From assembly GCF_040712075.1 (NCBI RefSeq), contig NZ_JBFCVL010000005.1, positions 434,001 to 498,000 of the forward strand: DNA of 64,000 nucleotides, in the 5' to 3' direction. This document shows, piece by piece, positions 16,830 through 33,175 of this stretch. Under the pieces are notes generated by a model. That model was given only the letters and a program-made list of their open reading frames with translations. It had not been told where the DNA came from and ran no database searches. The stretch comes from Fodinicurvata sp. EGI_FJ10296. Lineage in GTDB: Bacteria > Pseudomonadota > Alphaproteobacteria > DSM-16000 > Inquilinaceae. A program made the position numbers and the translations under genes. Numbering within the stretch: the stretch's first letter is position 1; each line of letters begins with the position of its first letter.

Positions 16830-17198
16830 ATTGTTTTTTCCTCGGCAAAGGCGAATAGGTAGATCAGGTGATTATACGCTGACTTTTGTCAGGTAACAAT
16901 GACTGCCACAGACACTTATATTCTGGCAGTCACCGTGGCAAATAAGGCGTAGAAATTATCGCTGGCTGAACCCGGCGCCCCCTCGGTAGTCGGATCGGGT
17001 GGAATATTGACTGTCATCGGTCGCTATCCCCACTCAAGATACACGCCATAGCATCGACCTCCCCCTCCGGGCGGAGAACCAGTCTCCCGAAGATAGCCCG
17101 ATCGGAAATCGAACCACCATGCGCACCATCTGTCACCCCTAAGGGTTTTCCGTTAACATCATATGATCAACCCGTTCTTATCTCATGATAGCCGTACC
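16830..17198. promoter_or_regulatory. Divergent divK/dinB promoter region with an inverted repeat
   Basis: 369 bp between divergent divK and dinB. It holds a perfect 9-bp inverted repeat, TGACTGCCA at 16900-16908 and TGGCAGTCA at 16924-16932, separated by an AT-rich 15-bp spacer. That geometry could be an operator or a hairpin. I found no TTAA-N7-TTAA CtrA box and no GTTC-N7-GTTC LexA box here. Confidence 0.5.
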
Positions 17199-18485
17199 AT
17201 GTCGATCAATGACAATTGGTTAACATCCCTGTGCCGGGATTGCGATTCCACAGCCGATCACGACGGTCGGCTACCCGCACGATGCCCGCATTGCGGATCG
17301 CCCCGTCTTGTGGCGCACCGCGAATTGAAGACCCTGACGATTGCCCACCTGGACTGCGACGCCTTTTATGCTGCCGTCGAAAAGCGCGATGACCCCACGA
17401 TTGCGCAGCGCCCGGTCATTGTCGGCGGCGGCCGTCGCGGGGTCGTCACCTCTGCCTGCTATATCGCCCGGATGTCGGAGGTACGGTCGGCCATGCCGAT
17501 GTTCAAGGCACTCGAAGCGTGCCCCGATGCCATCGTCGTCCGGCCGGATATGGCGAAGTACAAGTCAACCGGCCGCGCGATTCGCTCAATACTCGAAGCT
17601 GCAACGCCGCTGGTCGAGCCGCTGTCCATCGATGAGGCGTTCCTGGACCTGAGCGGCACCGAGCGCCTGCACGGCGCATGTCCGGCGGTCGTCTCGGCGA
17701 GGCTGGTGCGCCGGATCGAAGCTGAAACCGGCATTTCCGTGTCCGTTGGCCTAAGCCACAACAAGCTTCTGGCGAAAATGGCGTCGGACCTGGACAAGCC
17801 GCGCGGTTTCGCGATCATCGGCCGCGCTGAGACGCTGGATTTTCTGGGCCCCCGGCGCGTCTCGGATTTGTGGGGCGTCGGTCAGGCCCTGGCCCGCAAG
17901 CTGGCATCCGACAATATCAGGACGATCGCCGACCTGCGCCTTCGCGATCCAGCGCGGCTGGTGGCCCGCTATGGCTCGGTCGGAACGCGACTGGCGGCCT
18001 TCTCAATGGGCCGCGACGATCGCGCGGTCTCTCCGGGACGCGCGGCCAAATCGATTTCAGCCGAACAGACATTCGACCGTGACATCAACGACATCGACGC
18101 CCTGCTCGACCGGTTGTGGCCACTTTCGGAAAAAGTCGCCCGGCGGCTGGTGACCCTTGACCTCTGCGGCCGCACCGTCGTCCTGAAACTGAAAACCGGA
18201 TCCTTCCGTACGGTAACCCGCAACCGGCGGCTCCACTCGCCGACGCAACTGGCCGGACGGCTGTTCGACACGGCCTCGGCAATGGCGCGCGAAGCCGCCG
18301 CCGGCAGCGGATTCCGGCTGATCGGAGTCGGCGTATCGGAATTGGCGCCCGGCTGTGACGCCGATCCGGCCGATCTCGCCGATCCGGGCCTGGCAAAGCG
18401 AAAATCCGTCGAATCGGCCATGACGGCGATCCGCGGAAAGCTCGGCGATCGAGCGATCGTCACCGGTCGGTCGCTGCCGAAATAG
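17199..18485 (+). CDS. dinB: DNA polymerase IV with N-terminal zinc-ribbon-like extension
   Basis: A 428-residue Y-family translesion polymerase. Palm-domain acidic motifs are present: IAHLDCDAFYAAVE and LVEPLSIDEAFLDLSG. The thumb (helix-hairpin-helix, VSDLWGVGQALARKLAS) and little-finger domain follow. Before the polymerase is a 40-residue extension with two Cys pairs (LCRDC and CPHCG), a likely zinc ribbon typical of one alphaproteobacterial DinB subgroup. An in-frame ATG at 17163 is an alternative start. No imuA/imuB/dnaE2 partners are in view. Confidence 0.92.
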   Translation: MSINDNWLTSLCRDCDSTADHDGRLPARCPHCGSPRLVAHRELKTLTIAHLDCDAFYAAVEKRDDPTIAQRPVIVGGGRRGVVTSACYIARMSEVRSAMPMFKALEACPDAIVVRPDMAKYKSTGRAIRSILEAATPLVEPLSIDEAFLDLSGTERLHGACPAVVSARLVRRIEAETGISVSVGLSHNKLLAKMASDLDKPRGFAIIGRAETLDFLGPRRVSDLWGVGQALARKLASDNIRTIADLRLRDPARLVARYGSVGTRLAAFSMGRDDRAVSPGRAAKSISAEQTFDRDINDIDALLDRLWPLSEKVARRLVTLDLCGRTVVLKLKTGSFRTVTRNRRLHSPTQLAGRLFDTASAMAREAAAGSGFRLIGVGVSELAPGCDADPADLADPGLAKRKSVESAMTAIRGKLGDRAIVTGRSLPK

Positions 18486-18514
18486 GCGATGTCGGCAAGC
18501 GGGACGTGGCGGGC

Positions 18515-19456
18515 CTATCCCTCGCAGGACGGCTCGGGAAGGCGCTCCAGTTCCGTCAGCGTGGCGTCGACGACGAAATCGCCATAGTCCAGTGCGAGCC
18601 GGTCGGCGACACCGTTCCCGAACAGCCGCATCGTCGTTTGGAACTCCGGCGACATGAGTTCCGCATCCGACGAGAAATGGGCCAGGACGATGCGCCAGGC
18701 TTCGGCTTCACGAAGGCTGTCATCGATTCTTTCATCGGTTTCGGATCCGGTTTCAGGTCCGGCTTGCAGCCCGGCGGCAGAAACCGTCGCGCTGATGTCG
18801 AAAGCGCTGCCCTTCTGTTCCCAATCCATCTCGGTGCCATCGAACACGGTGGCCGCATAGAACGGTTCGCCCGCTGCGGCGCGCTCGATCAGCTCGACCG
18901 TGTGCGCGACCGGAAAGATGATACCGGCCGGCAAGGTCTCGCTGCCCTCTGTCGGGGAACGGTACTCCACGGCAACTCGCCCCTCACCCCCGTCATTTCC
19001 GTCGCGCCGGGTAGCGGTTCCACGCAGGGTCTGGCTACCGGTCACATCGGAATCCTGTGCCAGCCGGAAGCTGAACGACGATCCGTCGAAAGCCTCCCAC
19101 GTGGCATAGGTGGACGCGATCTCGATCGCACCGCCCATTCGGTCATAGAGCACCATGTCGACGGTTTGCGCGATCGTCCAGCCTTCGCAATCATGCGACC
19201 ACTCAGCGGACATCGTGCCGGAAATGCTCTCCAACCCGCCGCGCGCGCCGGACTCGGCCAGCGAAAACTCGTATAAGGTCCGGTGAGAGGCCAGCCCTCC
19301 GGGGCCACCGACCCCGCTGTTCGGGGTGTCGGCGACCACATCGGCGATCGGCGCACCGGTCAGCAACAGCGCCGCCGCCAGCCCCACGCCGCCAAGCGGC
19401 CGCTTCCAGTCGATTGCCGGGTTCGGGCGCCCGCTCGCGTGAAATACGATTGTCAT
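18515..19456 (-). CDS. eipB: EipB-family (DUF1849) periplasmic envelope protein
   Basis: A 313-residue exported protein with an N-terminal signal/anchor (VGLAAALLLTGAPIADVVA). The mature part begins LASHRTLYEFSLAESG and includes ISGTMSAEWSHDCEGWTIAQ, the hallmark of EipB, a beta-spiral protein needed for envelope integrity in Brucella. The Cys in HDCEGW and the Cys three residues from the C-terminus (PSCEG) match the disulfide known in that family. It converges on dinB with a 29-bp gap and diverges from the dehydrogenase gene. Confidence 0.88.
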   Translation of the reverse strand: MTIVFHASGRPNPAIDWKRPLGGVGLAAALLLTGAPIADVVADTPNSGVGGPGGLASHRTLYEFSLAESGARGGLESISGTMSAEWSHDCEGWTIAQTVDMVLYDRMGGAIEIASTYATWEAFDGSSFSFRLAQDSDVTGSQTLRGTATRRDGNDGGEGRVAVEYRSPTEGSETLPAGIIFPVAHTVELIERAAAGEPFYAATVFDGTEMDWEQKGSAFDISATVSAAGLQAGPETGSETDERIDDSLREAEAWRIVLAHFSSDAELMSPEFQTTMRLFGNGVADRLALDYGDFVVDATLTELERLPEPSCEG

Positions 19457-19546
19457 GATCCCCTCGCTTCAAAGGCCGTGCAGGACATACGCTTGGCGGT
19501 TAGACTCATCCAGACGTCAACACAATCATCGAATAACGGCACCAAC

Positions 19547-20551
19547 ATGGAAAGCGACGCCGAAATGACGGAAAATGCAGCCGAAAGCCGGCCCCGGCCG
19601 CGGGTTCTGGTAACGCGCAGGTTACCCGCGGATGTGGAGGCCCGGCTGCGGACCGAGTTCTCGCCCCTGCTATACGAAGATGGCGGCCCGATCGGCCTCG
19701 ACAAGATCGCCGCCGAAGCGGAAAAGGCAGACGCGCTGTTGATCACCGGCAGCGAGAAGATGACCGGGGACGCCTTTGCCGCGCTGCCGAAATCGATCAG
19801 GATCGTTGCGACGCTGTCCGTCGGCACCGACCATATCGATCTGGACGCGGCTCGCAAGCTCGGCTTCGTCGTTACCAACACCCCCGACGTCCTGACCGAC
19901 GCGACCGCGGATATCACGCTGCTGGTCATGCTGGGCGCCGCAAGGCGGGCCTATGAGGGGCAGAAGATCCTGCGCGAAGGGCGTTGGACGGGCTGGGCGC
20001 CGACCCAGTTTCTGGGCACCGATCTGAGGGGCAAGCGCCTGGGCGTTCTGGGCATGGGACGGATCGGCCAGGCGGTCGCCGCCCGTGCCCGCGCATTCGG
20101 CATGAAGATCCACTATCACAACCGCCGCCCGGTCGCCGAGGCCGAAGCCCTGGCAGCCACCTATCACGACACCGTTGAATCGCTGCTGCGCGTATCGGAT
20201 GTCCTGTCGCTCAACTGCCCCGGCACTCCGGAGACCCATCACCTGATCAACGATCGGACCATCGACATGATGCCGCCGAACGCCATTCTGGTGAACACGG
20301 CGCGCGGCAGCGTCGTCGATGACGAAGCACTGATCCGGGCCCTGAAATCGGGTCGGCTGCAGTCGGCCGGGCTGGACGTTTTCGAGGGCGAGCCCAAGGT
20401 CAATCCCGGCTACTTCGACATCGATAACTGCTACATCCTGCCACACATGGGCAGCGCGACGGTCGAGACACGCAACGCCATGGGCTTCTGCTGCCTCGAC
20501 AACATCGCGGCCTATTTCAGCGGACAGGAACCGCCGGCCCGGGTCGCCTGA
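19547..20551 (+). CDS. D-2-hydroxyacid dehydrogenase (glyoxylate/hydroxypyruvate reductase type)
   Basis: A 334-residue NAD(P)-dependent dehydrogenase. The Rossmann motif GVLGMGRIGQAVAARARAFG is followed by catalytic residues in the expected order: Arg (NTARGSVVDDEAL), Glu (GLDVFEGEPKVNPGYF) and His (LPHMGSAT). GTDHIDLDAARKLGF and TPDVLTDATAD are typical of GyaR-like glyoxylate reductases. The start MESDAEM at 19547 is chosen by length; ATG 19565 is possible. It converges on aspS with 25 bp between stops. Confidence 0.88.
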   Translation: MESDAEMTENAAESRPRPRVLVTRRLPADVEARLRTEFSPLLYEDGGPIGLDKIAAEAEKADALLITGSEKMTGDAFAALPKSIRIVATLSVGTDHIDLDAARKLGFVVTNTPDVLTDATADITLLVMLGAARRAYEGQKILREGRWTGWAPTQFLGTDLRGKRLGVLGMGRIGQAVAARARAFGMKIHYHNRRPVAEAEALAATYHDTVESLLRVSDVLSLNCPGTPETHHLINDRTIDMMPPNAILVNTARGSVVDDEALIRALKSGRLQSAGLDVFEGEPKVNPGYFDIDNCYILPHMGSATVETRNAMGFCCLDNIAAYFSGQEPPARVA

Positions 20552-20576
20552 CGAGTCACGACAGGTCGGCGCAGGC

Positions 20577-22412
20577 TCAGCCCTCCGCCGGCTTCTTCGC
20601 GGTGGTCGGCGGGGGCGCCGGCCGGATATGCAGTTCGCGCAGCCGCGCGTCGTCCACCGCGTTGGGGGCGCCCATCATCAGATCCTCCGCACGCTGGTTG
20701 AGCGGGAAGGCAATGACCTCGCGGATATTCGGCACATCGGCCAGCAGCATGACAATGCGGTCAATACCCGGCGCCGAGCCACCATGGGGCGGAGCGCCGA
20801 ATTTCATCGCCGACAGCATGCCGCCGAACCGCTCTTCGAGCACCTCGGCCGGGTATCCGGCAATATCGAAGGCCTTGTACATGATGTCGGCGCGGTGGTT
20901 CCGGATCGCACCGGACGACAGTTCCACGCCGTTGCAGACGATGTCGTACTGGAAGGCCTTGATCGTCAGCGGATCCTGGTTTTCCAGCGCCTCCAGCCCG
21001 CCCTGCGGCATCGAGAACGGGTTGTGGCTGAAATCGACCCGGCCGGTATCCTCGTTCAGCTCGAACATCGGGAAGTCGACGATCCAGCAGAAATCGAAAC
21101 GGTTGTGGTCGATCAGCTCCATTTCCTCGCCGATGCGGGTCCGGGCCAGCCCGGCCATCCGCGCAGCCTGCGTCGGCTGATCGCAAACGAAGAACACCGC
21201 ATCGCCGTCCTCAAGCCCGGCGATCTCGCGCAGCGCCGCCTGGGCGGCCTCGGGCACGAATTTTGCGATCGGTCCCTTGCCTTGCCCGTCGGCGAACAGG
21301 ATATAGCCGAGCCCAGGCGCGCCCTGATCCTGCGCCCACGCATTCAGCTTGTCGAAGAACGACCGCGGCCGGTCGCCGACTGCCGGCGCCCGGATGGCCC
21401 GCACGACGCCGCCCTTTTCGATGGTCGAGCGGAACGCCTTGAAGGCGACGTCCTCGCGCTGGAAAATCTCCGTAACATCGGTAATCACCAGCGGGTTGCG
21501 CAGATCCGGCTTGTCGGAGCCGTATTTCAGCATCGCCTCGTCATAGGGAATACGGGGGAACGGGGGCGGCGTCACCGGACGACGGCTGCCGGTGAAACCG
21601 GCGAACTCCTCGAACACACCGTGCAGGACGGGCTCGATCGCCGCGAACACATCGTCCTGGGTCACGAAGCTCATCTCGAAATCGAGCTGATAGAACTCAC
21701 CCGGCGACCGGTCGGCGCGGCTGTCCTCGTCGCGGAAACATGGCGCGATCTGGAAATATTTGTCGAACCCGGCCATCATCAACAGCTGCTTGAACTGCTG
21801 CGGCGCCTGGGGCAGCGCGTAGAATTTGCCGGGATGCAGCCTGGACGGGACCAGAAAGTCGCGCGCGCCTTCCGGGCTCGATGCCGTCAGGATGGGGGTC
21901 TGGAACTCGTTGAAGCCCTGCTCGATCATGCGCCGGCGAATCGACGAAATGATCTCGCTGCGCAGCCAGATATTACGCTGCATCTTGATCCGGCGGAGGT
22001 CCAGATAGCGGTGGCGAAGGCGGATTTCCTCGCCCGCATCCGCATCGCTGTTGACCTGCAGCGGCACCTGGTCCGCCGCCGACTGCAGCACCACGTCACG
22101 GATCCGCAACTCGACCCGGCCGGTGGGGTTGTTCTCGTTGATGGTATCCTCGGTCCGGCGCACGACCTCGCCCGTCACCGTCACGACGCTTTCCAGACGA
22201 TAGCTTTCGGCCATTTCCATCAGGGCCGCATCGCTGCCCGTCTTGTCGCCCATATCGATCACGCATTGCGTGATGCCGAAATGATCGCGCAGATCAACGA
22301 AGAGCAACCCGCCATGGTCGCGCTTGCGGTGGATCCAGCCGGAAAGGCGCACGGTTTCTCCGGCGTCGGTATCGCGGAGGTCGCCACAAGTATGGGTGCG
22401 GAACGGATGCAT
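20577..22412 (-). CDS. aspS: Aspartyl-tRNA synthetase
   Basis: A 611-residue class IIb synthetase charging tRNA-Asp. The N-terminal OB anticodon-binding fold ([20 protein letters not shown]), motif 2 ([19 protein letters not shown]), the bacterial-type GAD insertion (residues about 300-420) and motif 3 ([16 protein letters not shown]) are all visible. The start [10 protein letters not shown] at 22412 is the usual family start. Whether it also mischarges tRNA-Asn (the non-discriminating type common where AsnRS is absent) cannot be decided from this window. Confidence 0.96.
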
Positions 22413-22523
22413 CACTATGAACTGCTTTCGTGACAATAGGGACGGGCTGAAATAGGCGAACGAATCCGCCGTCGCAAGACGGGCCGAAACGCCCGCGAAA
22501 ACCACACCGAACGGGCCTCAATG

Positions 22524-23321
22524 TCAAGCATCGCCAGCGCCATGCGGCCCCGAGCCACGCGCATTGTCCGAATGCCCCGCCCCGGAATACCCCAGCGCCC
22601 CGGAGATCGCCGACGCCGTGGCCAGAACATCGCCGCTGAACGCCCGCAGCCGGGTAACGGTGAGCCGTTGCCGGGGACCGGAGATGCCGACGCCCGCCAC
22701 CGCCTGTCCGGTGGCGTCGAAGATCGGCGCGGCCAGCCCGCACACGCTCTCGCGCCATTCACCGCGATTGATCGCATAGCCCTGGCGGCGAATCCGGTCC
22801 AGCTCCGCCGCGAAGGCCGTGGGGTCGGTAATGCTGTGCGGCGTGTGGGCGTACAGATAGCGGGAAATCTGCTCCGCCCCCATCGGCGCCTGAAAGGCAA
22901 GCAGCGCCTTGCCGGTGGCGACGCACGATGCCGGCGCGCGCCCGCCGACGCGGGAATAGGCCCGCACCGGCTGCGGGCTGTCAATCTTCTGGACATAGAC
23001 GACGTCGGTATCGTCGAGGACGGACAGGTGGACTGTCTCCTCTGATTTCTCCGCCAGGGCTTGAATGAAGGGACCGGCGACACTCGCGACGTCGATCCGG
23101 CCAATCACCGCGTTCCCCAGCTCGAATACCTTCAAGCTGCAGTCATATCGACCGTCCGGGCATTGGCGGGCGTATCCGGCCGCGACCAGCGTCTGCAGCG
23201 TGCGATGCGCGTTGCTGCGGGTCAGGCCGGTGGCCTGTGCCAGATCGCTGACTCCCCGCGGCGACGGGCCGCGGGCCAGAACTTCCAGCAAAGTCAGCCC
23301 CTTGATCAATGTCTTGTCCAT
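22524..23321 (-). CDS. IclR-family transcriptional regulator
   Basis: A 265-residue regulator. The N-terminal winged helix includes SDLAQATGLTRSNAHRTLQTLV. The C-terminal effector domain shows the IclR pattern GRAPASCVATGKALLAF and CGLAAPIFDATGQAVAGVGIS. It is transcribed divergently from a five-gene acyl-CoA catabolic operon, 126 bp away, with a perfect palindrome between them, so it is probably their local regulator. GAGGGTGA lies 7 bases before the ATG. The inducer is unknown but likely a pathway acid or CoA ester. Confidence 0.93.
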   Translation of the reverse strand: MDKTLIKGLTLLEVLARGPSPRGVSDLAQATGLTRSNAHRTLQTLVAAGYARQCPDGRYDCSLKVFELGNAVIGRIDVASVAGPFIQALAEKSEETVHLSVLDDTDVVYVQKIDSPQPVRAYSRVGGRAPASCVATGKALLAFQAPMGAEQISRYLYAHTPHSITDPTAFAAELDRIRRQGYAINRGEWRESVCGLAAPIFDATGQAVAGVGISGPRQRLTVTRLRAFSGDVLATASAISGALGYSGAGHSDNARGSGPHGAGDA

Positions 23322-23382
23322 GACGGGTCACCCTCGGGTCTCGACCGTTCTTGACACATGAACGCGCATATGCCCAAAATAT

Positions 23383-23395
23383 AGGACATTGTCCT
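23383..23395. promoter_or_regulatory. Perfect palindrome, candidate IclR operator
   Basis: AGGACA-T-TGTCCT, a 13-bp perfect palindrome flanked by AT-rich arms, in the divergent promoter between the iclR-type gene and the CoA operon. It lies 53 bp upstream of the GTG start of the first operon gene. IclR-family proteins usually bind short palindromes in exactly this position. Confidence 0.6.
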
Positions 23396-23447
23396 GAATA
23401 TTAGAACACCTGAAAAACCGGACCAACGCAAGTCAGGAAACAGCCCC

Positions 23448-24599
23448 GTGACGTCACCCCTCCACGGAATCCGCGTGATCGAATTCTGCAATGTTGCCGC
23501 CGGCCCATTCTGCGGCATGTTGCTGGCCGACATGGGCGCGGACGTGATCAAGGTCGAAAACCCGAAGGGCGGCGACAGCCTTCGCAGCTGGCCGCCGCTG
23601 AACGAGGGCTTCAGCGAGAATTTTGCCTCTCTGAACCGCAACAAGCGTTCGGTCGCCCTGAACCTGAAAGACCCTGAGGATTGCGAGCGGACACTGGCCC
23701 TGATGCGCGACGCCCATGTGGTGATTGAAAACAATCGCCCCGGTGTGATGGATCGTCTGGGGCTGGGCTTCGAGGCAGTCCACAAGGACAACCCGTCGCT
23801 GATCTATTGCTCGATCTCGGCCTATGGCCAATCGGGACCGCGCGCGCAGGAAGGCGGCTTCGACCTGACGGTCCAGGCCATGGCCGGCATCATGAGCGTG
23901 ACCGGCGAAGCCGATGGCGGTCCGGTCAAATGCGGGGTGCCGGTCGCTGATTTCTCGTCGGGGCTCTATGCGGCGTTCTCGATCTGCGCGGCCCTGCGCG
24001 GTGTGGCCGCGGGCGGTCCGGGAACGCATATCGACGTGTCGATGCTGGGCGCGACGCTGGGGATCGCGGCGCTGCAGACCTCGGAATATTTCGGCAGCGG
24101 CAAGGATCCCGGCCGCATGGGCTCTGCTCATCCCCGCAATGCCCCCTATCAGGCGTTCCAGGCGCGGGATACATATTTCGGCATGGCGGCCGGCAACGAC
24201 GCCTTGTGGCACAGCGTCTGCGCCACGGTGGAGCGGCCCGATCTGGCGAGCGATCCCCGGTTCACCGACACATCGGCCCGCGCCGCCCACCAGATTGTAC
24301 TGCGGGAGATCCTTGAGGAAATCTTCGCCACGGCGGATGCCGCCGACTGGCTCGAACGATTCCGCGCGGCGGGCGTCCCCTGCGCACCCATCAACGCATA
24401 CTCACAAGTGCTGGACGATCCGCAGGTCGCGCATATGGGCTGGGTTCAGCCGATCGACCTGCCCAATGGTCAACGGACCCGGACTTTCGGCCCGCCGGTG
24501 GCGTTCTCCGATCAGCAGACCGCGATTCGGCGCGGGCCGCCGGCGCTGGGTGAGCATACCGAAGAAGTGCTGGGTGCCTTGCCACGGGGCAAAACCTGA
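23448..24599 (+). CDS. Family III CoA-transferase (CaiB/BaiF type)
   Basis: A 383-residue CoA-transferase of the interlocked-ring family, moving CoA between carboxylic acids. It begins LHGIRVIEFCNVAAGPFCGMLLADMGADVIKVE and has the NLNRNKRSV-like segment (SLNRNKRSVALNL). The catalytic Asp region is FDLTVQAMAGIMSVTGE, followed by GPVKCGVPVADFSSGLYAA. The start is GTG at 23448 with AGGAAA 8 bases upstream. It is the first gene of the operon, and its stop overlaps the next start (TGATG). The substrate is not predictable from sequence alone. Confidence 0.9.
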   Translation: MTSPLHGIRVIEFCNVAAGPFCGMLLADMGADVIKVENPKGGDSLRSWPPLNEGFSENFASLNRNKRSVALNLKDPEDCERTLALMRDAHVVIENNRPGVMDRLGLGFEAVHKDNPSLIYCSISAYGQSGPRAQEGGFDLTVQAMAGIMSVTGEADGGPVKCGVPVADFSSGLYAAFSICAALRGVAAGGPGTHIDVSMLGATLGIAALQTSEYFGSGKDPGRMGSAHPRNAPYQAFQARDTYFGMAAGNDALWHSVCATVERPDLASDPRFTDTSARAAHQIVLREILEEIFATADAADWLERFRAAGVPCAPINAYSQVLDDPQVAHMGWVQPIDLPNGQRTRTFGPPVAFSDQQTAIRRGPPALGEHTEEVLGALPRGKT

Positions 24600-25324
24600 T
24601 GACCGCCGGTCTCAGCATCGACCGCCGCGACGACGTCTGCACGGTCACGCTCGACCGGCCCGAGAAGCGGAACGCCCTTGGCGCCGACGTCGTCGAAGCC
24701 CTGATCCGGACGGTTACCGAAGCATACGGCGACAGCACCCGCTTGCTGGTGCTGCAGGGCACGGGCCGGAACTTCAGCGCCGGCTTTGATTTTGGCGGCA
24801 TCGACCAATCGAGTGATGGCGAATTGCTGTTGCGATTCGTGCGCATCGAGGTGCTGCTGCAAATGATCGACCGGGCCCCGTTCCTGACCCTCGGCCTTGC
24901 CCATGGCCGCACGTTCGGCGCCGGGGCCGACCTGTTCGCCGCCTGCAAGTGGCGCATCGCAGCCGAGGGTGCAGAGTTCCGGATGCCGGGCCTGAAATTC
25001 GGCATCGTGCTCGGAACGCGGCGATTTGCGAAATTGGTCGGCCGCGACATGGCACGGGGTATACTGGAGACGGCACGCCCATTCGACGCGGCCGAGGCGC
25101 GCAAGATCGGCTTCGCGACCCGGATCGCCGATCAGCCTGCATGGCCCGAAATCATTGCTGAGGCCGCCGATGCCGCGCGCAGCCTTCCCGATACCAGCCG
25201 GTCGCAGCTTTACGAGGCGCTTGGCGACGACGGATCCGACGGCGATCTCGCCCGGCTCGTCCGGTCGGCCGCGGAACCGGGTTTGGTGGACCGCATTCGC
25301 CAGCACCTCGCCGCGCCGCGATAA
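24599..25324 (+). CDS. Enoyl-CoA hydratase/isomerase family protein
   Basis: A 241-residue crotonase-fold enzyme. Recognisable parts are the LDRPEKRNAL entry strand, the first oxyanion-hole segment (GTGRNFSAGFDFGGI) and the second (LAHGRTFGAGADLFAACKWRIA). It is short for the family, and the region usually carrying the two catalytic glutamates is MPGLKFGIVLGTRRFAKLVG, where an active-site Glu pair is not obvious. It may therefore be a hydrolase or isomerase rather than a hydratase. It overlaps the previous gene by one base. Confidence 0.85.
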   Translation: MTAGLSIDRRDDVCTVTLDRPEKRNALGADVVEALIRTVTEAYGDSTRLLVLQGTGRNFSAGFDFGGIDQSSDGELLLRFVRIEVLLQMIDRAPFLTLGLAHGRTFGAGADLFAACKWRIAAEGAEFRMPGLKFGIVLGTRRFAKLVGRDMARGILETARPFDAAEARKIGFATRIADQPAWPEIIAEAADAARSLPDTSRSQLYEALGDDGSDGDLARLVRSAAEPGLVDRIRQHLAAPR

Positions 25325-25339
25325 CGCAGGAGACCGCTC

Positions 25340-26158
25340 ATGGCCCTCAGATTCATCGACAAGAACAAGCAGGTCTCGCTGGCCGAGCTGGCGGCCAGGG
25401 TGCCGGACGGCGCCTCGGTGGCGCTGGGCGGCAGCTTTCTGCACCGGGGGCCGTTCGCCTTCGTGCGCGAGTTGATCCGCCAGGGCCGCCGCGACCTGGA
25501 GATCATCAAGCAATCGCCAGGCTATGATCTGGATATTCTGTGCCGGGCCGGTGCCGCCCGCAAGGCACGGGCCGGCATCGTGGCGATGGAGGGCAATTTC
25601 GGTCTGGCGCGGGGCTATCGCAAAGCCGTGGAAAGCGGTGCGCTGGAACTGGAGGAACACGCCTGCGCCAGTCTGACGGCGGGGCTGCGGGCCGCTGCCT
25701 TCGGCGTTCCGTTTCAGCCCTGCGGCGGCCTGCACGGCAGCGACATTCCCGAACTGAACGGGTGGAAGGCGCTGGCCGACCCCTATGGCTCCAACAGCGA
25801 TGTCTGGGTCATCCCGGCTATCGCACCGGATTTCGCGGTCATCCACGCGACCGAGGTCGACACCGAGGGCAATGTCCGCGTCGCCGGCACCAGCCATTGG
25901 GACCGGATCATGACCCGTGCCGCCAAAAGCGTGCTGGTCGTGGCCGAACGCGAGGTCGACACGCGCGAATTCAAAGCCCGGCCGGAATGGACTCTCGTGC
26001 CGTATTTCATGGTCGAAGCCGTAACCGTCGTGCCGAACGGCGCCTGGCCCGGATCGGCCTGGCCGGACTATGGAATCGATTATCCGGCGGTCGAGGCCTA
26101 TGTCGCCGACAAGGATCTCTCCCGCCATCTCGATGCCGCACCGGAAAGCAGGGCTTGA
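25340..26158 (+). CDS. CoA-transferase-like enzyme, alpha subunit (GctA/IpdA family)
   Basis: A 272-residue class I CoA-transferase alpha subunit. It shows the start VSLAELAARVPDGASVALGG, the ELEEHACASLTAGLRAAAFG helix with a Glu cluster at residues 103-106, and VDTEGNVRVAGTSHWDRIM, then the KSVLVVAEREVDT strand. It is followed by its beta subunit after 3 bp. Annotation as glutaconate CoA-transferase is common for this family, but the beta partner lacks the catalytic Glu, which points to an IpdAB-like hydrolase instead (see findings). Confidence 0.85.
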   Translation: MALRFIDKNKQVSLAELAARVPDGASVALGGSFLHRGPFAFVRELIRQGRRDLEIIKQSPGYDLDILCRAGAARKARAGIVAMEGNFGLARGYRKAVESGALELEEHACASLTAGLRAAAFGVPFQPCGGLHGSDIPELNGWKALADPYGSNSDVWVIPAIAPDFAVIHATEVDTEGNVRVAGTSHWDRIMTRAAKSVLVVAEREVDTREFKARPEWTLVPYFMVEAVTVVPNGAWPGSAWPDYGIDYPAVEAYVADKDLSRHLDAAPESRA

Positions 26159-26161
26159 TCG

Positions 26162-26896
26162 ATGACTGATACCTGGACGGGCTTTTCCTATATCGTCACC
26201 AATCTCGCCCGCTTCATTCGGCCCGGCGAAGTCACCTTCAGCGGCGTCAACTCGACGCTGCCGATGCTGGCCTGCCTGATGGCCAAGCGCGCCTATGACT
26301 GGGATTTCATCTATATCAACGTCGCCGGCGGCGTCGATCCGGAGCCCTCGGCAATTCCGCTGTCGAGTTCCGATCCGCTCCTGGCCGAACAGTCGGCGTC
26401 GATTTTCTCGAATGAGGATTTCTACGACCTGTGCACGCGCGGGCAGATGGATCTGGCCTATCTGGGCGCTGCCCAGATCGACGGTGAGGGGTCGGCGAAC
26501 AACTCGGTCATCGGCGACTGGCATGCGCCCAAGGTGCGGCTGCCCGGCGGTGGCGGCGGGGCCGTCATGCTGCCGACGGCCAATCGCGCCTGCACCTGGC
26601 GAACCGAGCACTCGCCCCGCACGCTGGTCGAAAGGCTGGATTTCGTGACCTCGTGGGGCGGATTCCACGGCGTCGCCACGCCGATCGCCGTCTTCGTCAA
26701 GCGCGACGGTCGACTGGCGCTGGAGTCCTGGCATCCGGAAGCCAGCCTGGACGAAGTGCGCGACCGGACCGGTTTTGCGTTCGACGCAACCTCCGCCAGA
26801 CCCACGCCGTTGCCGACCGATCGCGAGCGCGCGGCGCTGGCCGCACTGGACCCGGAACAGCGCTTCGAACGCGATGCGGCGATCGAATTGCGGTGA
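26162..26896 (+). CDS. CoA-transferase-like enzyme, beta subunit, catalytic Glu replaced
   Basis: A 244-residue beta subunit of the GctB/IpdB family: LGAAQIDGEGSANNSVIGDW, PGGGGGAVMLPTANR and the C-terminal LPTDRERAALAALDPEQRF are family landmarks. The position of the nucleophilic Glu (E54 in VESG of Acidaminococcus GctB) aligns without gaps to V54 in NVAGGVDP here, counting from the ATG at 26162. Classical CoA transfer through a glutamyl-CoA intermediate would then be impossible. IpdB of steroid-degrading bacteria also lacks this Glu, and IpdAB is a ring-opening hydrolase. The comparison sequences are recalled, not searched. Confidence 0.85.
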   Translation: MTDTWTGFSYIVTNLARFIRPGEVTFSGVNSTLPMLACLMAKRAYDWDFIYINVAGGVDPEPSAIPLSSSDPLLAEQSASIFSNEDFYDLCTRGQMDLAYLGAAQIDGEGSANNSVIGDWHAPKVRLPGGGGGAVMLPTANRACTWRTEHSPRTLVERLDFVTSWGGFHGVATPIAVFVKRDGRLALESWHPEASLDEVRDRTGFAFDATSARPTPLPTDRERAALAALDPEQRFERDAAIELR

Positions 26897-26901
26897 CCTT
26901 C

Positions 26902-28395
26902 ATGAATTTTCAGTGGCCCTCCCTTCCCGAAGCCTGCTACCGGCAATGGCACTCGTCGGATCTGCGGGAGCGCATTGCGCTGGTCTCGGACTCCGAACAG
27001 CTGGATTATGCCGCGCTGGCCGAACGAACGGCAGCAGCGGCGGCGGCGCTCGTCACGATGGGGACGGCGCGCGGCGATATCGTCGCCATCGCCATGAACC
27101 GGTCGATCGATGCGGTGATTGCCATCCTCGGGGCCCTCTGGGCCGGCGCCTGCCCCTGCCCGCTCGACAGCCAGCTATCGGCCGGGCAATTGCGCGCCAT
27201 GCTGTCGGCGGTCGGGGCGGCGTGGATCGTGGCCGACGACGATCACATGGATTGTGCCCGGGACCTTGGATATGGCGCCAGCCGTCTGATCGCGGCGGAT
27301 TTCAGTACAGCGGCCGCCTATCGCGACCTCGACCTCGGACCCGACAACCGGGCGCTGTTGCTGTTCACCTCGGGCAGCACAGGCCACCCGAAAGGGGTAA
27401 TGCTTTCACACCGCAATCTGCTCAGCAATGCCGATGGCGTCATTCGTCATACGCAGCTGACGGACAGAGACCGGTTGCTGCACAGCATGCCGCTCCATCA
27501 CACCAACGGCCTGAACAATCAGATATTCGCGCCATTGCTGGCGGGCGCCACCGTCGTCCTGGGCGGACGCTTCAAGGCCGACACCTTTCCCGATCTGGTC
27601 GACCGGCACCGCCCGACGATCATAACCGGCGTGCCCACCATGTATGCGCGCCTTCTGGACCAGCCATTCAACCGCGAGGCGTTGCAGGGCCTGCGCATGG
27701 CCCGCTGCGGGTCGGCCCCGATCACCGAGGATCTTCACCGGCGGGTCGAGGCTCATATGGGTTGTGATCTCGTCGTCTCGTACGGATTGTCGGAGGCGAC
27801 CTGCACCAGCCTGATGAATCCGCCGGGCAGGCGCCGGATCGGTACCGTCGGGACGGTGCTGCACGGCCAGCAGGTGTCGCTGCTGAAGCCCGGCAGCAGC
27901 GAGCCGGTGGCCGACGGCGAGGAAGGAGAGATTGCGATCTCGGGGCCCAGCCTCATGACCGGTTATCTCGGCGCCGATCCCCAGGCCGACCGCGCCGTCG
28001 TCGATGGGCGGCTTCGCACCGGCGATCTTGGCCGATTCGACGCCGACGGCTACCTGACCATCACCGGCCGCCTGAAAGAAGTCATCATTCGGGGCGGCGA
28101 GAATCTGTCGCCGCAGGCGATCGAACAGGCGCTTGCCGCCGACCCGGGTGTCCGGACCTGCTGCGTTGTCGGCCGCGCCCACCATGATCTGGGCCAGGTG
28201 CCGGTCGCCTTCGTCGTTTTGGCGGACGGCACCCCCCGCGATGCCGACCGTCTGTGCGATCTGGTGGCTTCGTCGCTGTCGCGGACCCACCGGCCCGCCG
28301 AGATCATCTTTCTGGACGCGCTTCCCGAAACTTCCGTCGGCAAGATCGACCGCAAGGCGCTGGCGACCCGCGTAAAGCAAGCCGCCGACGGATGA
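26902..28395 (+). CDS. AMP-forming acyl-CoA synthetase
   Basis: A 497-residue adenylate-forming enzyme activating a carboxylic acid to its CoA thioester. The AMP-binding P-loop LLLFTSGSTGHPKGVMLSH, the A5-like VSYGLSEAT, the hinge GDLGRFDADGYLTITGRLKE and the catalytic Lys in ETSVGKIDRKAL are all intact. It is the last gene of the IclR-controlled operon. ATG 26902 is used; an in-frame GTG at 26893 overlapping the previous stop is equally possible. Residues around LHSMPLHHTNGLNNQ would line the acyl pocket; substrate unknown. Confidence 0.92.
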   Translation: MNFQWPSLPEACYRQWHSSDLRERIALVSDSEQLDYAALAERTAAAAAALVTMGTARGDIVAIAMNRSIDAVIAILGALWAGACPCPLDSQLSAGQLRAMLSAVGAAWIVADDDHMDCARDLGYGASRLIAADFSTAAAYRDLDLGPDNRALLLFTSGSTGHPKGVMLSHRNLLSNADGVIRHTQLTDRDRLLHSMPLHHTNGLNNQIFAPLLAGATVVLGGRFKADTFPDLVDRHRPTIITGVPTMYARLLDQPFNREALQGLRMARCGSAPITEDLHRRVEAHMGCDLVVSYGLSEATCTSLMNPPGRRRIGTVGTVLHGQQVSLLKPGSSEPVADGEEGEIAISGPSLMTGYLGADPQADRAVVDGRLRTGDLGRFDADGYLTITGRLKEVIIRGGENLSPQAIEQALAADPGVRTCCVVGRAHHDLGQVPVAFVVLADGTPRDADRLCDLVASSLSRTHRPAEIIFLDALPETSVGKIDRKALATRVKQAADG

Positions 28396-28476
28396 CAGAT
28401 CAAAGCGTCTTTGGATTTTCGACAACTGCACCGGAGGCTGTACCGGGCGGCTGTGACGTGGCATAACGCTGCCACC

Positions 28477-29658
28477 ATGACACTCATCACCGATCAAAAA
28501 TCTCTTGACGCCTTCTGCTCCGCGATGACGCGGGAGCCGTACGTCACCGTCGACACCGAGTTCCTGCGCGAAAGCACTTATTGGCCCAAGCTCTGCCTCG
28601 TGCAGATCGCCGGCGCCGATCAGGCCGCGGCGATCGACCCGCTGGCCGATGGCATCGATCTGGCGCCGGTCCTTGACCTGCTGGCCGATCCCAACGTGCT
28701 CAAGGTATTCCACTCCGCCCGGCAGGACATCGAGATATTCGTGCAATTGACCGGGACCGTGCCTGCACCGGTGTTCGATACCCAGATTGCCGCCATGGTG
28801 TGCGGCTTCGGCGAAAGCATCGGGTTCGAGGCGCTGGTCACACGGCTGACCGACCACCGGGTCGACAAGTCGTCGCGTTTCACCGACTGGTCGCTCCGGC
28901 CGCTGTCGGAAAAGCAACTGGCCTATGCGCTGGCGGACGTCACCCTGCTGCGACCGGCCTACGAGGCGCTGCGCGACGATCTGGCCCGCAACGGCCGCGA
29001 GGCCTGGCTGTCGGAAGAAGTCCAGACGCTGACCGACAAGGAAACCTATGTAACCCGGCCGGAGGATGCGTGGCGGAGGATCAAGACGCGCTCCACCGAC
29101 CGAAAGGCACTGTCTGTTCTGAAACACGTCGCGGCGTGGCGCGAACGCGAGGCCCAGGCGCGCGACCTGCCGCGTGGCCGGGTCCTGCGCGACGAACCGC
29201 TGGTGGATATCGCCATGCGGACACCGAAAACGGTCGAGGAACTGGCCAAGACGCGCGGCATCGCCCCGACCATGGCGCGCGGCAAACAGGGGACCGCCAT
29301 TCTGGCGGCTATCGCCGACGGCCTTGCGGTCCCGGCCGACCAGCGCCCCAAAGTCGCCGGACGGCCGCCGGTTGCCGATAATGGCGGCGGCGTGCTGGAA
29401 ATGCTGAAGGTGCTGCTGAAAATGACCTGCGAGCAGCACAAGGTCGCGCAGAAGCTCGTGGCCAATTCCGCTGACCTCGAACGGATCGTGGCCGAAGACA
29501 ATCCCGATGTGCCGGCCCTTTCCGGCTGGCGGCGCGAGATTTTCGGCCAGCAGGCGCTCGACCTGAAGGCCGGCCGGCTGGCGCTGTCGGTCAATGGCGG
29601 CACGGTCCGGGTTCATGACCTGAGCAAGATGGACGCCCTTTCCACCGGCGGCGACTGA
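28477..29658 (+). CDS. rnd: Ribonuclease D
   Basis: A 393-residue 3'-5' exoribonuclease involved in tRNA 3' maturation. DEDDy motifs are present: VDTEFLRE (ExoI), VFHSARQDIEIF (ExoII) and YALADVTLL (ExoIII with Tyr and Asp). An HRDC domain follows (LKHVAAWREREAQARDLPRG), then a second helical domain. The ATG at 28477 starts the conserved MTLITDQKSL segment. It stands alone after the CoA operon; the mosaic repeat copy B follows its stop. Confidence 0.94.
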   Translation: MTLITDQKSLDAFCSAMTREPYVTVDTEFLRESTYWPKLCLVQIAGADQAAAIDPLADGIDLAPVLDLLADPNVLKVFHSARQDIEIFVQLTGTVPAPVFDTQIAAMVCGFGESIGFEALVTRLTDHRVDKSSRFTDWSLRPLSEKQLAYALADVTLLRPAYEALRDDLARNGREAWLSEEVQTLTDKETYVTRPEDAWRRIKTRSTDRKALSVLKHVAAWREREAQARDLPRGRVLRDEPLVDIAMRTPKTVEELAKTRGIAPTMARGKQGTAILAAIADGLAVPADQRPKVAGRPPVADNGGGVLEMLKVLLKMTCEQHKVAQKLVANSADLERIVAEDNPDVPALSGWRREIFGQQALDLKAGRLALSVNGGTVRVHDLSKMDALSTGGD

Positions 29659-29706
29659 CCTCCTCCCCAGTGCTGCGGTTGGCGCTCTGCACCTCCATTC
29701 CGGAGT

Positions 29707-30290
29707 CGGTGGCAACGGGTCACCCTCCTGATCGCCCCCGACATCGATCCTGCTCGATTCACAGATCGTCCGTGCTGCGCCAACTGTACTTTTTAACCCG
29801 AACTCCGCGTCCTATCCCCTCCCCGGAGGCGCGAAGCGCCATCCGGCGACTGTGTTTATTGCCTCAGCATCCGCCCCTGTCTCATCCCCGGAAGCACGAA
29901 GTGCTGTCCGGGGTCCACACGTTCCGCGAGAGCCCGGCCCGCGTTTCGCCCGCCGAGAGCCACGGCACCCGATCCCGGGTCTGCAGCCCGTCACTTCGCG
30001 CCGCGCTGCGCACGGGAATTGGAGAAGGTGGAAAGCGCCCCGGACCACCTTTTCCTGCCCCGAAAGCGCGAAGCGCCACCCAGGATCAACAACCTCAGAG
30101 AGAGCGTTGGCAGTATGGGCCCCGGCCCTGCGAAGCAGCATTTCATGCTGCATCGCGTCCGGGGCGGGGGAGTTCTTTGGGCGCTGTCCCCTTGTCCGTT
30201 CGCCAGGAAAGGAAAAAGCGCCCGGGACGATCAGGAGATCGGAAGCGCATTGTGTGAATACCGTAGAGATGGGACAGGGGATCTTCCCTG
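29707..30290. repeat. Dispersed mosaic repeat, copy B (largest)
   Basis: Non-coding, between the convergent rnd and the HEPN-like gene; it fills almost the whole 633-bp gap. Modules in order: a head shared with copy A; hairpin 1 at 29821-29846 (GGCGC/GCGCC); an ACTGTGTTTATTG segment shared inverted with copy D; hairpin 1 again at 29886-29913 (AGCAC-GAA-GTGCT); an inverted piece of the copy C unit around 29970-30035; a degenerate hairpin near 30060; and hairpin 2 at 30135-30151 (GCAGCAT-TTC-ATGCTGC) with the tail shared with copy A. The mosaic order suggests repeated rearrangement of small modules. Confidence 0.85.
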
Positions 30291-30291
30291 A

Positions 30292-30723
30292 CTACCGTGT
30301 AAGCGCCAGAGCAACCAGGCGCAGGGCATCACGGGCGTCCTGCTCGAAGACCTCGCCGTGACTCCAGTGCATATCGGGCGTCAATGTCGGACTTCCGGGC
30401 TGCACATGGACGAGCCGGTTGCGCAGCAAGCGCAATTCCTCGAACTCCGCCGGCAGGCCCAGCCGATGGAAAAGGTCGCGGGTGTTCTCCAGCGCATTGC
30501 CCGGGGCGGCGGTTTCCCGGAGATGAGCCTCGATGACAGCCGTGGACAGGATCACGGCCGACAGCCATGCCCCGACGCAAAACACGTCCTCCAGTTCGGC
30601 AAGCAGCGCCTCTGCCTGCTGGCCCGGCTGGGCGGCGGCATCGTCCAGTGCGCGGGTCACCGTTTCGGCGAACCAGCGCCGCCGCGCGGTCCAATCGGCT
30701 TGTGTCGGTCGCTCGGACGTCAC
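30292..30723 (-). CDS. Small HEPN-like protein overlapping pccA
   Basis: A 143-residue, mostly helical protein of no firm family. It has LEDVFCVGAWLSAVILSTAV, then FEELRLLRNRLVHVQPGS, in which RNRLVH fits the R-x4-H motif of HEPN domains (often RNase toxins or nucleotide-binding helical bundles). The start is a GTG at 30723 overlapping the pccA stop (GTGA), which indicates translational coupling. A HEPN assignment rests on this single motif plus helical character. A role tied to the carboxylase is suggested only by position. Confidence 0.65.
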   Translation of the reverse strand: MTSERPTQADWTARRRWFAETVTRALDDAAAQPGQQAEALLAELEDVFCVGAWLSAVILSTAVIEAHLRETAAPGNALENTRDLFHRLGLPAEFEELRLLRNRLVHVQPGSPTLTPDMHWSHGEVFEQDARDALRLVALALTR

Positions 30724-32705
30724 TCGAACTCCATGATCTTGCCGTCGACGGACAGGCTGTCGCCGGGCCTGGCATGAAAAGCGGTCACGGTACCTTCCCG
30801 CTCGGCACGCAGGATGTTTTCCATCTTCATCGCTTCGACCACGCAGAGCGCCTCGCCGACCTGCACCTGCTGGCCCTCCTCGACCATCAGTGACACCAGA
30901 AGGCCTGGCATCGGCGACAGCAGGAATTTGGACATATCCGGCGCCTCGCGCACCGGCATCAGATCGGCGAGTTCCGCCGTGCGCGGCGACAGGACCTCGA
31001 TATCCACGATCGCCCCGGCGTGGTACATGCGATAGCCGATACCGAGCCGGTCGATCTGTATGGCCACATCGCTGCCATCGACCGACCCTTCCCACAGCGT
31101 CAGGCCGGGCCGCCAGGTGTCTTCCACCAGAACCTGCTGTCCTTCGACCGTCACCGTGAACGCGCCGCCGGACCGGCGCACGATAACCGGCAGGTTGGCC
31201 CGATTAATCCGGATCGCCCAATCGCTCTGCGTCGGCGTATCGGTATTGGCGATCCGGCCGGTGAGGCTGCGCTCGCGGTCCGCAATTCGCCAATGAACGC
31301 TGGCAGCAACTGCCATGACCCGCATAAGGGCATCGCCGTTAAGTTCCGCCGGCCTGACACCGCCGGGAAATTCTTCTGCGATGAAGTTGGTCGTCATGTC
31401 GCCGGCGCGGAATCGGGGGTGAAGCATCAGCTGCGCCAGAAATCCGGCGTTGTGCTGGATGCCCCGAACCTCCAGCCGATCGAGCGCGCCGATCATGGCG
31501 TCGATCGCCTCGATCCGGGATTGGCCGCTGGTCACCACCTTGGCGATCATCGGATCGTAGTACATGGTTATCTCTGATCCCTCGGCGACACCGGTATCGA
31601 TTCGGACCGTGCCGGTGGCCGGCGGCGTACGATAGCGGGTCAGGCGGCCGATCGAGGGCAGAAATCCGCGATAGGGGTCTTCGGCATAGAGCCTCGTTTC
31701 CATCGCCCATCCGCGCAGAACGACGTCTTCCTGCCCGAAGCTCAGCGCCTCGCCCGCCGCAATGCGGATCATCCATTCGACGAGGTCGGTATCGGTGACC
31801 ATTTCCGTGACCGGGTGCTCGACCTGGAGCCGGGTATTCATTTCCAGGAAGTAGAAGTTGCGATCCTTGTCGACGATGAACTCCACCGTTCCGGCCGACA
31901 CATAGCCGACGGCCCGTGCCAGCGCGACCGCCTGCTCGCCCATCGCCTTGCGGGTGGCGGCGTCCAGAAACGGAGACGGAGCCTCCTCGACCACTTTCTG
32001 GTGGCGGCGCTGAATCGAGCACTCGCGCTCGCCCAGATAGACGACGTTGCCATGGGTGTCGGCCAGCACCTGAATCTCGATATGCCGGGGTTGCTCGACG
32101 AATTTCTCGATGAAAACCCTGTCGTCGCCGAAACTGCTGCGCGCCTCGCCGGTCGCGCCGTTGAAGCCGTCGACCACCTCCGCCGCGGCGTTCACGACGC
32201 GCATGCCCTTGCCGCCACCGCCCGCCGACGCCTTCAGCATGACCGGGAAGCCGATCTCCTCGGCGATGCGCTGGGCCGACTCGACATCGGCGACGGCGTC
32301 GGGATGGCCGGGCACGGTGCTGACCCCCGCCTTGGCAGCGAGCTTCTTCGAGGTAATCTTGTCGCCCATGGCGGCGATCGCCTCGGCGCCCGGGCCGATG
32401 AAGACGATGCCGGCTTCGGCCAGGGCTTCGGCGAAGCGGGTGTTTTCCGACAGGAAGCCATAGCCCGGATGGACGGCCTCGGCGCCGGTATCGCGGCACG
32501 CCCGAACGATGTTCTCGATGACCAGATAGCTCTCGGCCGCCGGCGCCGGGCCGATGGCCACGGCCTCGTCGGCCATGCGCACATGCACGGCGTCACGGTC
32601 GGCGTCGGAATAGACCGCCACCGTGGCAATGCCCATGGCGCGCGCAGACCGGATCACCCGGCAGGCAATTTCCCCGCGATTGGCTATCAGGATCTTGGTG
32701 AACAT
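30720..32705 (-). CDS. pccA: Propionyl-CoA carboxylase alpha subunit (biotin carboxylase plus BCCP)
   Basis: A 661-residue subunit that carboxylates biotin with bicarbonate and ATP. The biotin carboxylase domain has ANRGEIACRVIRSARAMG, HPGYGFLSEN, the glycine loop SAGGGGKGMR and EMNTRLQVEHPVTE. A linker (BT) domain follows, then the C-terminal biotinyl site EAMKMEN. Length and linker fit PccA better than the 450-residue AccC or MccA. The start MFTKILIANRG at 32705 has GAGG about 9 bases upstream. No carboxyltransferase (pccB) gene is in the window. Product use: propionyl-CoA to methylmalonyl-CoA. Confidence 0.9.
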   Translation of the reverse strand: MFTKILIANRGEIACRVIRSARAMGIATVAVYSDADRDAVHVRMADEAVAIGPAPAAESYLVIENIVRACRDTGAEAVHPGYGFLSENTRFAEALAEAGIVFIGPGAEAIAAMGDKITSKKLAAKAGVSTVPGHPDAVADVESAQRIAEEIGFPVMLKASAGGGGKGMRVVNAAAEVVDGFNGATGEARSSFGDDRVFIEKFVEQPRHIEIQVLADTHGNVVYLGERECSIQRRHQKVVEEAPSPFLDAATRKAMGEQAVALARAVGYVSAGTVEFIVDKDRNFYFLEMNTRLQVEHPVTEMVTDTDLVEWMIRIAAGEALSFGQEDVVLRGWAMETRLYAEDPYRGFLPSIGRLTRYRTPPATGTVRIDTGVAEGSEITMYYDPMIAKVVTSGQSRIEAIDAMIGALDRLEVRGIQHNAGFLAQLMLHPRFRAGDMTTNFIAEEFPGGVRPAELNGDALMRVMAVAASVHWRIADRERSLTGRIANTDTPTQSDWAIRINRANLPVIVRRSGGAFTVTVEGQQVLVEDTWRPGLTLWEGSVDGSDVAIQIDRLGIGYRMYHAGAIVDIEVLSPRTAELADLMPVREAPDMSKFLLSPMPGLLVSLMVEEGQQVQVGEALCVVEAMKMENILRAEREGTVTAFHARPGDSLSVDGKIMEFE

Positions 32706-33022
32706 CGGGTGGGGCCTCATGGCGTTGTTGTGGGCATTGTTACGGTATGGTCCTGGAACGAACCGTCAAATGGCGGGTTGCCGGATTGGACCATCGGCCA
32801 CACCATCCGGCAACAGGGAATCAGCATGCTACAGCACCGATGCGCACCGCTCATCCCCACAGTTATCCACCGATCCATACACAAGATCATGTAACATCGG
32901 GCCGTCAAGGCACATAATCTGGTTGCCAGCCGGAGGTGCCAGGGCCTATCGTGGCCGCCGCATCGGTGATTGCCGCTTCGGCCCGCACCGATGCCGGGGT
33001 GCTGGCGGTTCTTCCCGGCTCG

Positions 33023-33037
33023 TTAGCGCTCTATTAA
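33023..33037. promoter_or_regulatory. CtrA-like box upstream of nrdJ, one mismatch
   Basis: TTAG, seven bases, TTAA: one mismatch from the CtrA consensus. It lies 19 bp upstream of the first NrdR-type box and about 140 bp before the nrdJ start. Confidence 0.4.
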
Positions 33038-33055
33038 CACTTGTCGGATCCCAAA

Positions 33056-33071
33056 TCACTAGATATAGTAT
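33056..33071. promoter_or_regulatory. NrdR box 1
   Basis: TCACTAGATATAGTAT, 13 of 16 positions fitting the NrdR consensus ACACwAtATaTwGTGT. It is paired with a second box exactly 31 bp downstream, the three-turn spacing typical of NrdR repressor sites. Confidence 0.7.
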
Positions 33072-33086
33072 GGTTGGTCCGTTTGC

Positions 33087-33102
33087 TCACTAAATATTGG
33101 AG
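33087..33102. promoter_or_regulatory. NrdR box 2
   Basis: TCACTAAATATTGGAG keeps the CACwA-AtATwG core but has a weaker right end. It lies in phase with box 1 and 74 bp upstream of the nrdJ start codon. Confidence 0.6.
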
Positions 33103-33175
33103 CAAATCCCGGCTAATTTTGGTTCCGGCCGACGGCCCACATCTATTCACGATCTTTCGAAGAAGAGGCACGGCA

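Follow-up and report, generated by a model that had tools for sequence, protein, structure and literature searches.

A protein pair of CoA-transferase fold lacking the nucleophilic glutamate, encoded in a conserved gene cassette of Fodinicurvata sp. EGI_FJ10296

The window (here the whole stretch of 64,000 nucleotides that was analysed) encodes two adjacent proteins, alpha and beta, which have the fold of glutaconate CoA-transferase and appear, to judge from their sequences, to form a heterodimer that is no longer a transferase. Such proteins are ordinarily named CoA-transferase subunits; the residue that gives them this name is absent in all 81 sequences compared. In the reading that we favour, to which we give about an even chance, the pair is a CoA-ester decarboxylase working like AibA/AibB (AibAB), while the family III CoA-transferase of the same operon loads CoA on a di- or tricarboxylate, all within a mobile cassette. 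Should the pair indeed be a decarboxylase, AibAB would be joined by a second, or a deeply diverged, case in which the transferase fold has been turned into a cofactor-free decarboxylase; there would also be a way into an unassigned carboxylate pathway of bacteria associated with plants and soil.

The cassette, its conservation and its distribution

Table 1. Features of the cassette (positions of the window)
Feature	Position	Strand	Remarks
Six-gene cassette between aspS and rnd	22410..28476		bounds approximate
IclR-family regulator	22524..23321	-	PF01614 + PF09339; divergent from operon
Family III (CaiB/Frc-type) CoA-transferase	23448..24599	+	PF02515, 426 bits
Divergent crotonase	24599..25324	+	PF00378, 91.8 bits
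Alpha subunit, CoA-transferase fold, 272 aa	25340..26158	+	PF01144, 75.6 bits (cut-off 23)
Alpha Cys109 codon	25664-25666		IpdA Glu105 position
Beta subunit, CoA-transferase fold, 244 aa	26162..26896	+	PF01144, 53.9 bits (cut-off 23)
Beta V54 codon	26321-26323		nucleophile position of family I CoA-transferases
AMP-forming acyl-CoA synthetase	26902..28395	+	PF00501 + PF13193; start ATG at 26902

Profile matches recovered every member that an earlier note, made from the letters alone, had assigned to the operon (family III CoA-transferase, crotonase, acyl-CoA synthetase and IclR regulator), and in the whole genome the alpha and beta ORFs are the only ones for which PF01144 matches were found. 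Against the NCBIfam 3-oxoacid CoA-transferase models the alpha and beta proteins reach 45.6 of 128.5 and 31.4 of 243.55 bits, far below the cut-off. The nearest solved relatives of the family III enzyme are 9br6 (SUGCT) and 4ed9, and its alignment (78 sequences) keeps the stretch GFDLT, the Asp of which we take to be the catalytic one of this family. The crotonase is nearest to 3isa (E 4e-79), which is named merely putative enoyl-CoA hydratase/isomerase; the active-site stretches of the window's crotonase look unlike those of classical hydratases, and GAGAD and FRMPG suggest that both catalytic Glu residues of classical enoyl-CoA hydratase may be missing. Among solved structures the acyl-CoA synthetase is nearest to malonyl-CoA synthetase (4gxr/4fuq, E about 1e-66), as found at a cut-off of E 1e-30 (a cut-off of 1e-70 gave no match).

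Comparison with 80 homologous loci reveals that the genes for the CaiB-type enzyme, crotonase, alpha, beta and ligase occur in this order and on the same strand in 71 of them, the exceptions being L047, L058, L059, L061, L064, L075, L080, L087 and L093. Two of these, L087 and L093, possess the pair and the ligase, but the stretch fetched for them yields no match to the CaiB-type enzyme or to the crotonase, which counts against a reading along the lines of AibAB. In 69 of the 80 loci the fetched stretch also contains a homologue of the IclR regulator with at least 45% identity. Median identity to the window, calculated over the loci in which at least 80% of the length is covered, is 79% for beta (80 loci), 72% for alpha (80) and for the family III enzyme (76), 54% for the crotonase (77), 53% for the ligase (77) and 52% for IclR (69). 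The family III enzyme and the alpha/beta pair, as the best-conserved members, thus make up a tightly conserved core, which looks like a couple of a CoA-loading and a CoA-ester-cleaving enzyme; its logic is presumably comparable to that of formyl-CoA transferase with oxalyl-CoA decarboxylase, or of CaiB/CaiC/CaiD.

The members compared include Burkholderiales, Methylobacterium, Luteibacter and others, and the cassette is common to many soil and plant bacteria; in a sample of the phylum an orthologue was found in 3 of 398 genomes, the window's own counted. None of 16 genomes of the same family contains a comparably close match (the best has 6.2e-23, against 5.5e-168 for the window's own), and in 8 of these 16 relatives aspS and rnd are divergent neighbours within about 220 bp, whereas here they lie about 6 kb apart; for these two reasons the cassette has probably been acquired horizontally, by insertion between aspS and rnd. 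As to the other relatives in this survey, 7 of the 16 lack aspS within the flank that was fetched (one contig being truncated), and 1 has it about 1.4 kb away. We found no tRNA in positions 17000-34000 of the window and no clear shift of GC content at the cassette. The suggestion that the pathway could be undescribed agrees with a survey of the open-access literature, in which we found no description of operon or pair; since subscription papers fall mostly outside that coverage, the survey is no proof of novelty.

The nucleophile position of beta and the acid position of alpha

The earlier note had set V54 of beta, without gaps, at the position of the nucleophilic E54 of GctB. Three alignment methods (tblastn, MAFFT and HHalign) confirm this placement, aligning V54 gaplessly with the Glu of the YESG/EAG stretch in transferase-type relatives; the HHalign profile-profile comparison lays INVAGG over IYESG with E 6e-35, and GctB (1poi) has ESG at this place. 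None of the three brings a Glu of beta into the nucleophile position. Residue 54 is Val in 81 of 81 sequences, i.e. in the window and in the 80 loci, which come from GTDB species genomes and were fetched (75-83% identity) by six peptide patterns that leave residue 54 uncovered. Val is also present here in L098, L103 and L104, orthologues that came from other searches.

In the transferase-type relatives the same column holds Glu in 38 cases out of 38, a count that comprises L004-L014 (n=11) and L105-L131 (n=27) and omits the aligned relatives of other kinds (L096, L132, L135, L136, L095, L099, L100, AibB, L097, L133 and L134). The first group stems from the search within the same family, where 28 matches yielded 12 loci (the window's own and L004-L014), and the second from the phylum sample of 398 genomes, where 30 of 53 matches were aligned as loci (the window's own, L103, L104 and L105-L131). 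Among the relatives of other kinds, Glu is present in L096, L132, L135 and L136, Ile in L095, Gly in the IpdB-type L099 and L100, and Cys in AibB; L097, L133 and L134 have a shifted stretch, EGATY or AGATY, with no Glu in this column.

Among the neighbouring beta columns counted in the 81 sequences, no conserved acid was found that replaces the Glu. Residue 48 is D in 70 of 81, residue 59 varies among D (54 sequences), N (26) and Q (1), and residue 61 is mostly other than Glu; D71, kept in 80 of 81, corresponds to the Asp of SIGD, which occurs in Glu-bearing enzymes too. As Val at position 54 is universal in the set and no acid takes over, we regard the loss as a feature of the family and not as a sequencing error or the decay of a single gene. 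The pair's family, L095 and AibB also share the absence of a segment of about 20 residues that follows DFVTSxG in the Glu-bearing enzymes, which we count in favour of an AibAB-like reading.

In alpha the motif EEHAC is invariant, and so are H35, K57, E105, H107 and C109 (the pair's own numbering), the last two in 81 of 81 sequences each. Comparison of 6coj (titled IpdAB E105A) with 6co6 reveals A versus E at one place, which aligns with alpha Cys109. We take Glu105 of IpdA to be catalytic; with V54 in beta and Cys109 in alpha, both known catalytic acids of the fold are therefore absent from the pair, as they are from AibAB.

Relationships to AibAB, IpdAB and the transferases

Searches against the PDB gave AibB as the best match of beta (7.8e-27 for a C56V chain and 3.6e-26 for the wild type), followed by GctB (8e-19), with IpdB at only 1.1e-5; for alpha, AibA (5.9e-26) is narrowly ahead of GctA (3.2e-25) and IpdA (1.5e-24). 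Models of the subunits, each built singly, point the same way. The alpha model (pLDDT 88.4) has Z 32.2 to AibA, 31.2 to IpdA and 29.1 to GctA, the first two being practically tied, and the low-confidence beta model (pLDDT 68.2, poor at residues 82-135 and under 50 at 87-135) matches the C56V entry of AibB with Z 16.1, GctB with 14.8 and IpdB with 13.7. This comparison, which the earlier note had proposed for the heterodimer, bears out the likeness of fold to IpdA and GctA and places AibA and AibB at the top in both subunits.

AibA/AibB is a decarboxylase of 3-methylglutaconyl-CoA with the CoA-transferase fold, also without the nucleophilic Glu (PMC7756340). The absent Glu does not, then, by itself imply ring hydrolysis, to which the earlier note had taken it to point. 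The Myxococcus xanthus enzyme (5mzw to 5n03) shares with the pair the fold, the missing beta nucleophile, the missing acid at the position of IpdA E105 and the missing segment of about 20 residues. It differs in having Cys56 of AibB where the pair has V54 and Glu72 of AibB where the pair has S69 (with D71 nearby), two differences that speak against an AibAB-like reading, and in having Gly in AibA where the pair has alpha Cys109; its gene neighbours differ as well, and no AibC-like dehydrogenase was found by Pfam among the six cassette genes, which likewise counts against that reading. The calculations reported for AibAB favour direct decarboxylation via an enolate, the protons being supplied by Cys56 and Glu72 (PMC7756340). 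In favour of the AibAB-like reading, the same paper, citing Bock 2017, states that replacing Cys56 by Ala, Ser, Asn or Val did not eliminate decarboxylation.

To place the pair we used trees of beta, of alpha and of the concatenated subunits, which took in part of the 80 loci (9 in one analysis, 6 in the other). The earlier note would have given up its proposal had the pair branched inside proven transferases; in all three trees it lies outside the clade of Glu-bearing transferases, which leaves it out with support of 98.8/99. Together with the distant L095 it forms a separate clade (99/93 in the beta tree, 97.8/97 in the concatenated tree and only 84/20 in the alpha tree). The IpdA/IpdB types form a clade of their own (100/100), which joins the transferases in the beta tree (91/86), while the adjoining fork of the concatenated tree is unsupported (40.5/60). 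Three results argue against a close tie to AibAB: AibA joins the clade of the pair in the alpha tree at only 84/78, AibB, on a very long branch, groups with L097, L133 and L134 in the beta tree (96/89), and the placement of AibAB in the concatenated tree has support of only 41/59. Since AibAB is not a supported sister group, we say that the pair may work like AibAB and not that it is AibAB.

The reading closest to the earlier note's own idea is a hydrolase like IpdA/IpdB, the COCHEA-CoA hydrolase (6con, 6co6 and 6coj), which would add water to a CoA ester of the beta-keto or vinylogous type and open a ring or cut a chain without loss of CO2. As a guide IpdAB has held in part: the fold is the same, with alpha within about 1 Z unit of the top match, both have lost the Glu of beta (L099 and L100 have Gly there, and PMC5380842 gives Gly57 of beta for the R. 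jostii RHA1 enzyme), and IpdAB, too, has a crotonase and an acyl-CoA ligase as partners, in the steroid pathway. It has failed where the Glu exchanged in 6coj corresponds to a cysteine in 81 of 81 alpha sequences, where beta is so much closer to wild-type AibB than to IpdB, and in the trees, where the IpdAB types stand apart and are not a supported sister of the pair; moreover, no IpdC-like (FabK-like) gene was found by Pfam among the six cassette genes, and the transporters that accompany some orthologues hint at carboxylates that are small and polar. With the alpha Glu105 gone, we rejected ring hydrolysis as the main reading and now think it unlikely.

Similarly unlikely, in our estimate, is some other reaction of a CoA ester, i.e. 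an isomerisation, a retro-aldol or lyase cleavage, or an intramolecular shift of CoA by a different mechanism. Enzymes of this fold already catalyse reactions as different as CoA transfer, hydrolysis and decarboxylation, and the separate clade with L095, together with the invariant alpha residues of its own, would suit such a novelty; no sign in sequence or context speaks positively for any single one of these reactions. L095 itself (from Acetoanaerobium) has the EHAC motif with Cys109 and Ile at position 54, and it differs from the pair in its identity of merely 37-39%, its gene cluster and its long branch.

Glutaconate CoA-transferase (1poi), L135 and L136 resemble the pair in fold, in the order of alpha and beta genes and in the gapless nucleophile region, and differ from it in the Glu at the V54 position and in the extra segment of about 20 residues; L135 and L136 lie within protocatechuate (pca) clusters and are plausible 3-oxoadipate CoA-transferases. 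That the pair itself is still a CoA-transferase, or a thioesterase, with another nucleophile such as alpha Cys109 fits its fold, its PF01144 membership and the invariance of that cysteine, but we hold it to be very unlikely: the titles of CtfAB entries call the Glu-to-Ser variant "inactive" (9cry) and the Glu-to-Asp variant a "hydrolase" (9cq2), the operon already holds a family III CoA-transferase, the cysteine belongs to alpha and takes the position of IpdA Glu105, not that of the beta nucleophile, and a simple transferase we reject outright on account of the absent Glu and of the branching outside the transferase clade.

Two groups of distant relatives have neighbours of a different kind. 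Around the L095 pair (L095:7121-8699, Acetoanaerobium noterae) the neighbouring ORFs look by eye like aldolase, aldehyde dehydrogenase, PduL and methylthioribose kinase/isomerase types. The pairs in L097:7057-8828, L133:4066-5813 and L134:3985-5807 are CoA-transferase-like, plasmid-borne and located beside genes of the coenzyme M/epoxide type, with phosphosulfolactate synthase and SDRs nearby and, in L134, 2-oxopropyl-CoM reductase; their alpha proteins also have Cys at the IpdA Glu105 position.

Proposed reaction, possible substrates and genomic neighbours

Since the operon encodes a family III CoA-transferase, the pair need not transfer CoA itself. In the decarboxylase reading, the family III enzyme would move CoA from a donor, either succinyl-CoA or the CoA ester of the product, to a small polycarboxylic acid, and the crotonase may either prepare a double bond beforehand or process the product afterwards. 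The presumed alpha/beta heterodimer would bind the thioester so that the distal carboxylate occupies the space that the absent Glu leaves free, and CO2 would be lost from an unsaturated (vinylogous) dicarboxylyl- or tricarboxylyl-CoA to give a dienolate, by analogy with AibA/AibB. This dienolate would then be protonated, candidate donors being alpha Cys109 or His107. The AMP-forming ligase might prime or top up the CoA cycle, and IclR would control expression.

Hints at the substrate come from the genes near the operon in the 80 loci. Clustering reveals a TcuC-type symporter in 18 of them, and each of the six proteins tested scores above the cut-off of NF011656. By clustering, Bug-type receptors occur in 46 of the 80 loci, the one representative tested having a terephthalate-binding protein as its best match; Bug genes are abundant in Alcaligenaceae, so their nearness to the operon may be due to chance. 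L090 has a TAXI-TRAP system, i.e. a TAXI receptor and a DctM gene. These transporters suggest a carboxylate, without telling which one. In the window's genome no TcuC homologue was found, and its cassette has no transporter, which counts against the AibAB-like reading; elsewhere in this genome we found four matches to the HpcH/HpaI family and seven other family III matches, which are uninformative on the substrate. Taken with the nearest solved relatives of the ligase and the family III enzyme (malonyl-CoA synthetase and SUGCT), the neighbours point to small polar acids, most naturally di- or tricarboxylates.

A more specific version, which we put forward as a doubtful guess, is an undescribed, horizontally mobile tricarboxylate pathway. 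In it the family III enzyme would convert e.g. trans-aconitate or a citrate analogue into aconityl-CoA, which is 3-carboxyglutaconyl-CoA and thus the 3-carboxy analogue of the AibAB substrate; alpha/beta, as a new decarboxylase family, would yield itaconyl- or mesaconyl-CoA, with the proton coming from the alpha Cys and not from a counterpart of AibB Cys56. The accessible portion of PMC12290011 deals with itaconate and methylsuccinate and not with the present operon. HMG or 3-methylglutaconate, suggested by SUGCT as the nearest solved family III enzyme, is kept as an alternative only, because HMG-CoA lyase would be the direct route.

Another candidate, the catabolism of thiodipropionate or mercapto acids, had been considered from CDO-like cupins and Bug receptors in Alcaligenaceae flanks and was dropped: PMC6370202 nowhere uses the word glutaconate in its main text, and the cupin is absent from the cassette of the window. 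The CDO-like cupin lies by the operon in 25 of the 80 loci (by clustering), mainly in Alcaligenaceae (e.g. L039:818-3977); the L039 protein has no Pfam match, and a separate protein from L019 has a weak match to PF05995.

In Paralcaligenes (L059:10198-12880) there are genes of LarA type (PF09861) and LarC type (PF01969), of the nickel racemase family, and a LarA-type gene was found by clustering only in L058 (Candidimonas) and in L090:14860-16251 (Filomicrobium); these neighbours could hint that a 2-hydroxy acid takes part in the pathway. An FAD/NAD(P)-binding protein (PF13454) is encoded beside the operon in 29 of the 80 loci, again mainly in Alcaligenaceae.
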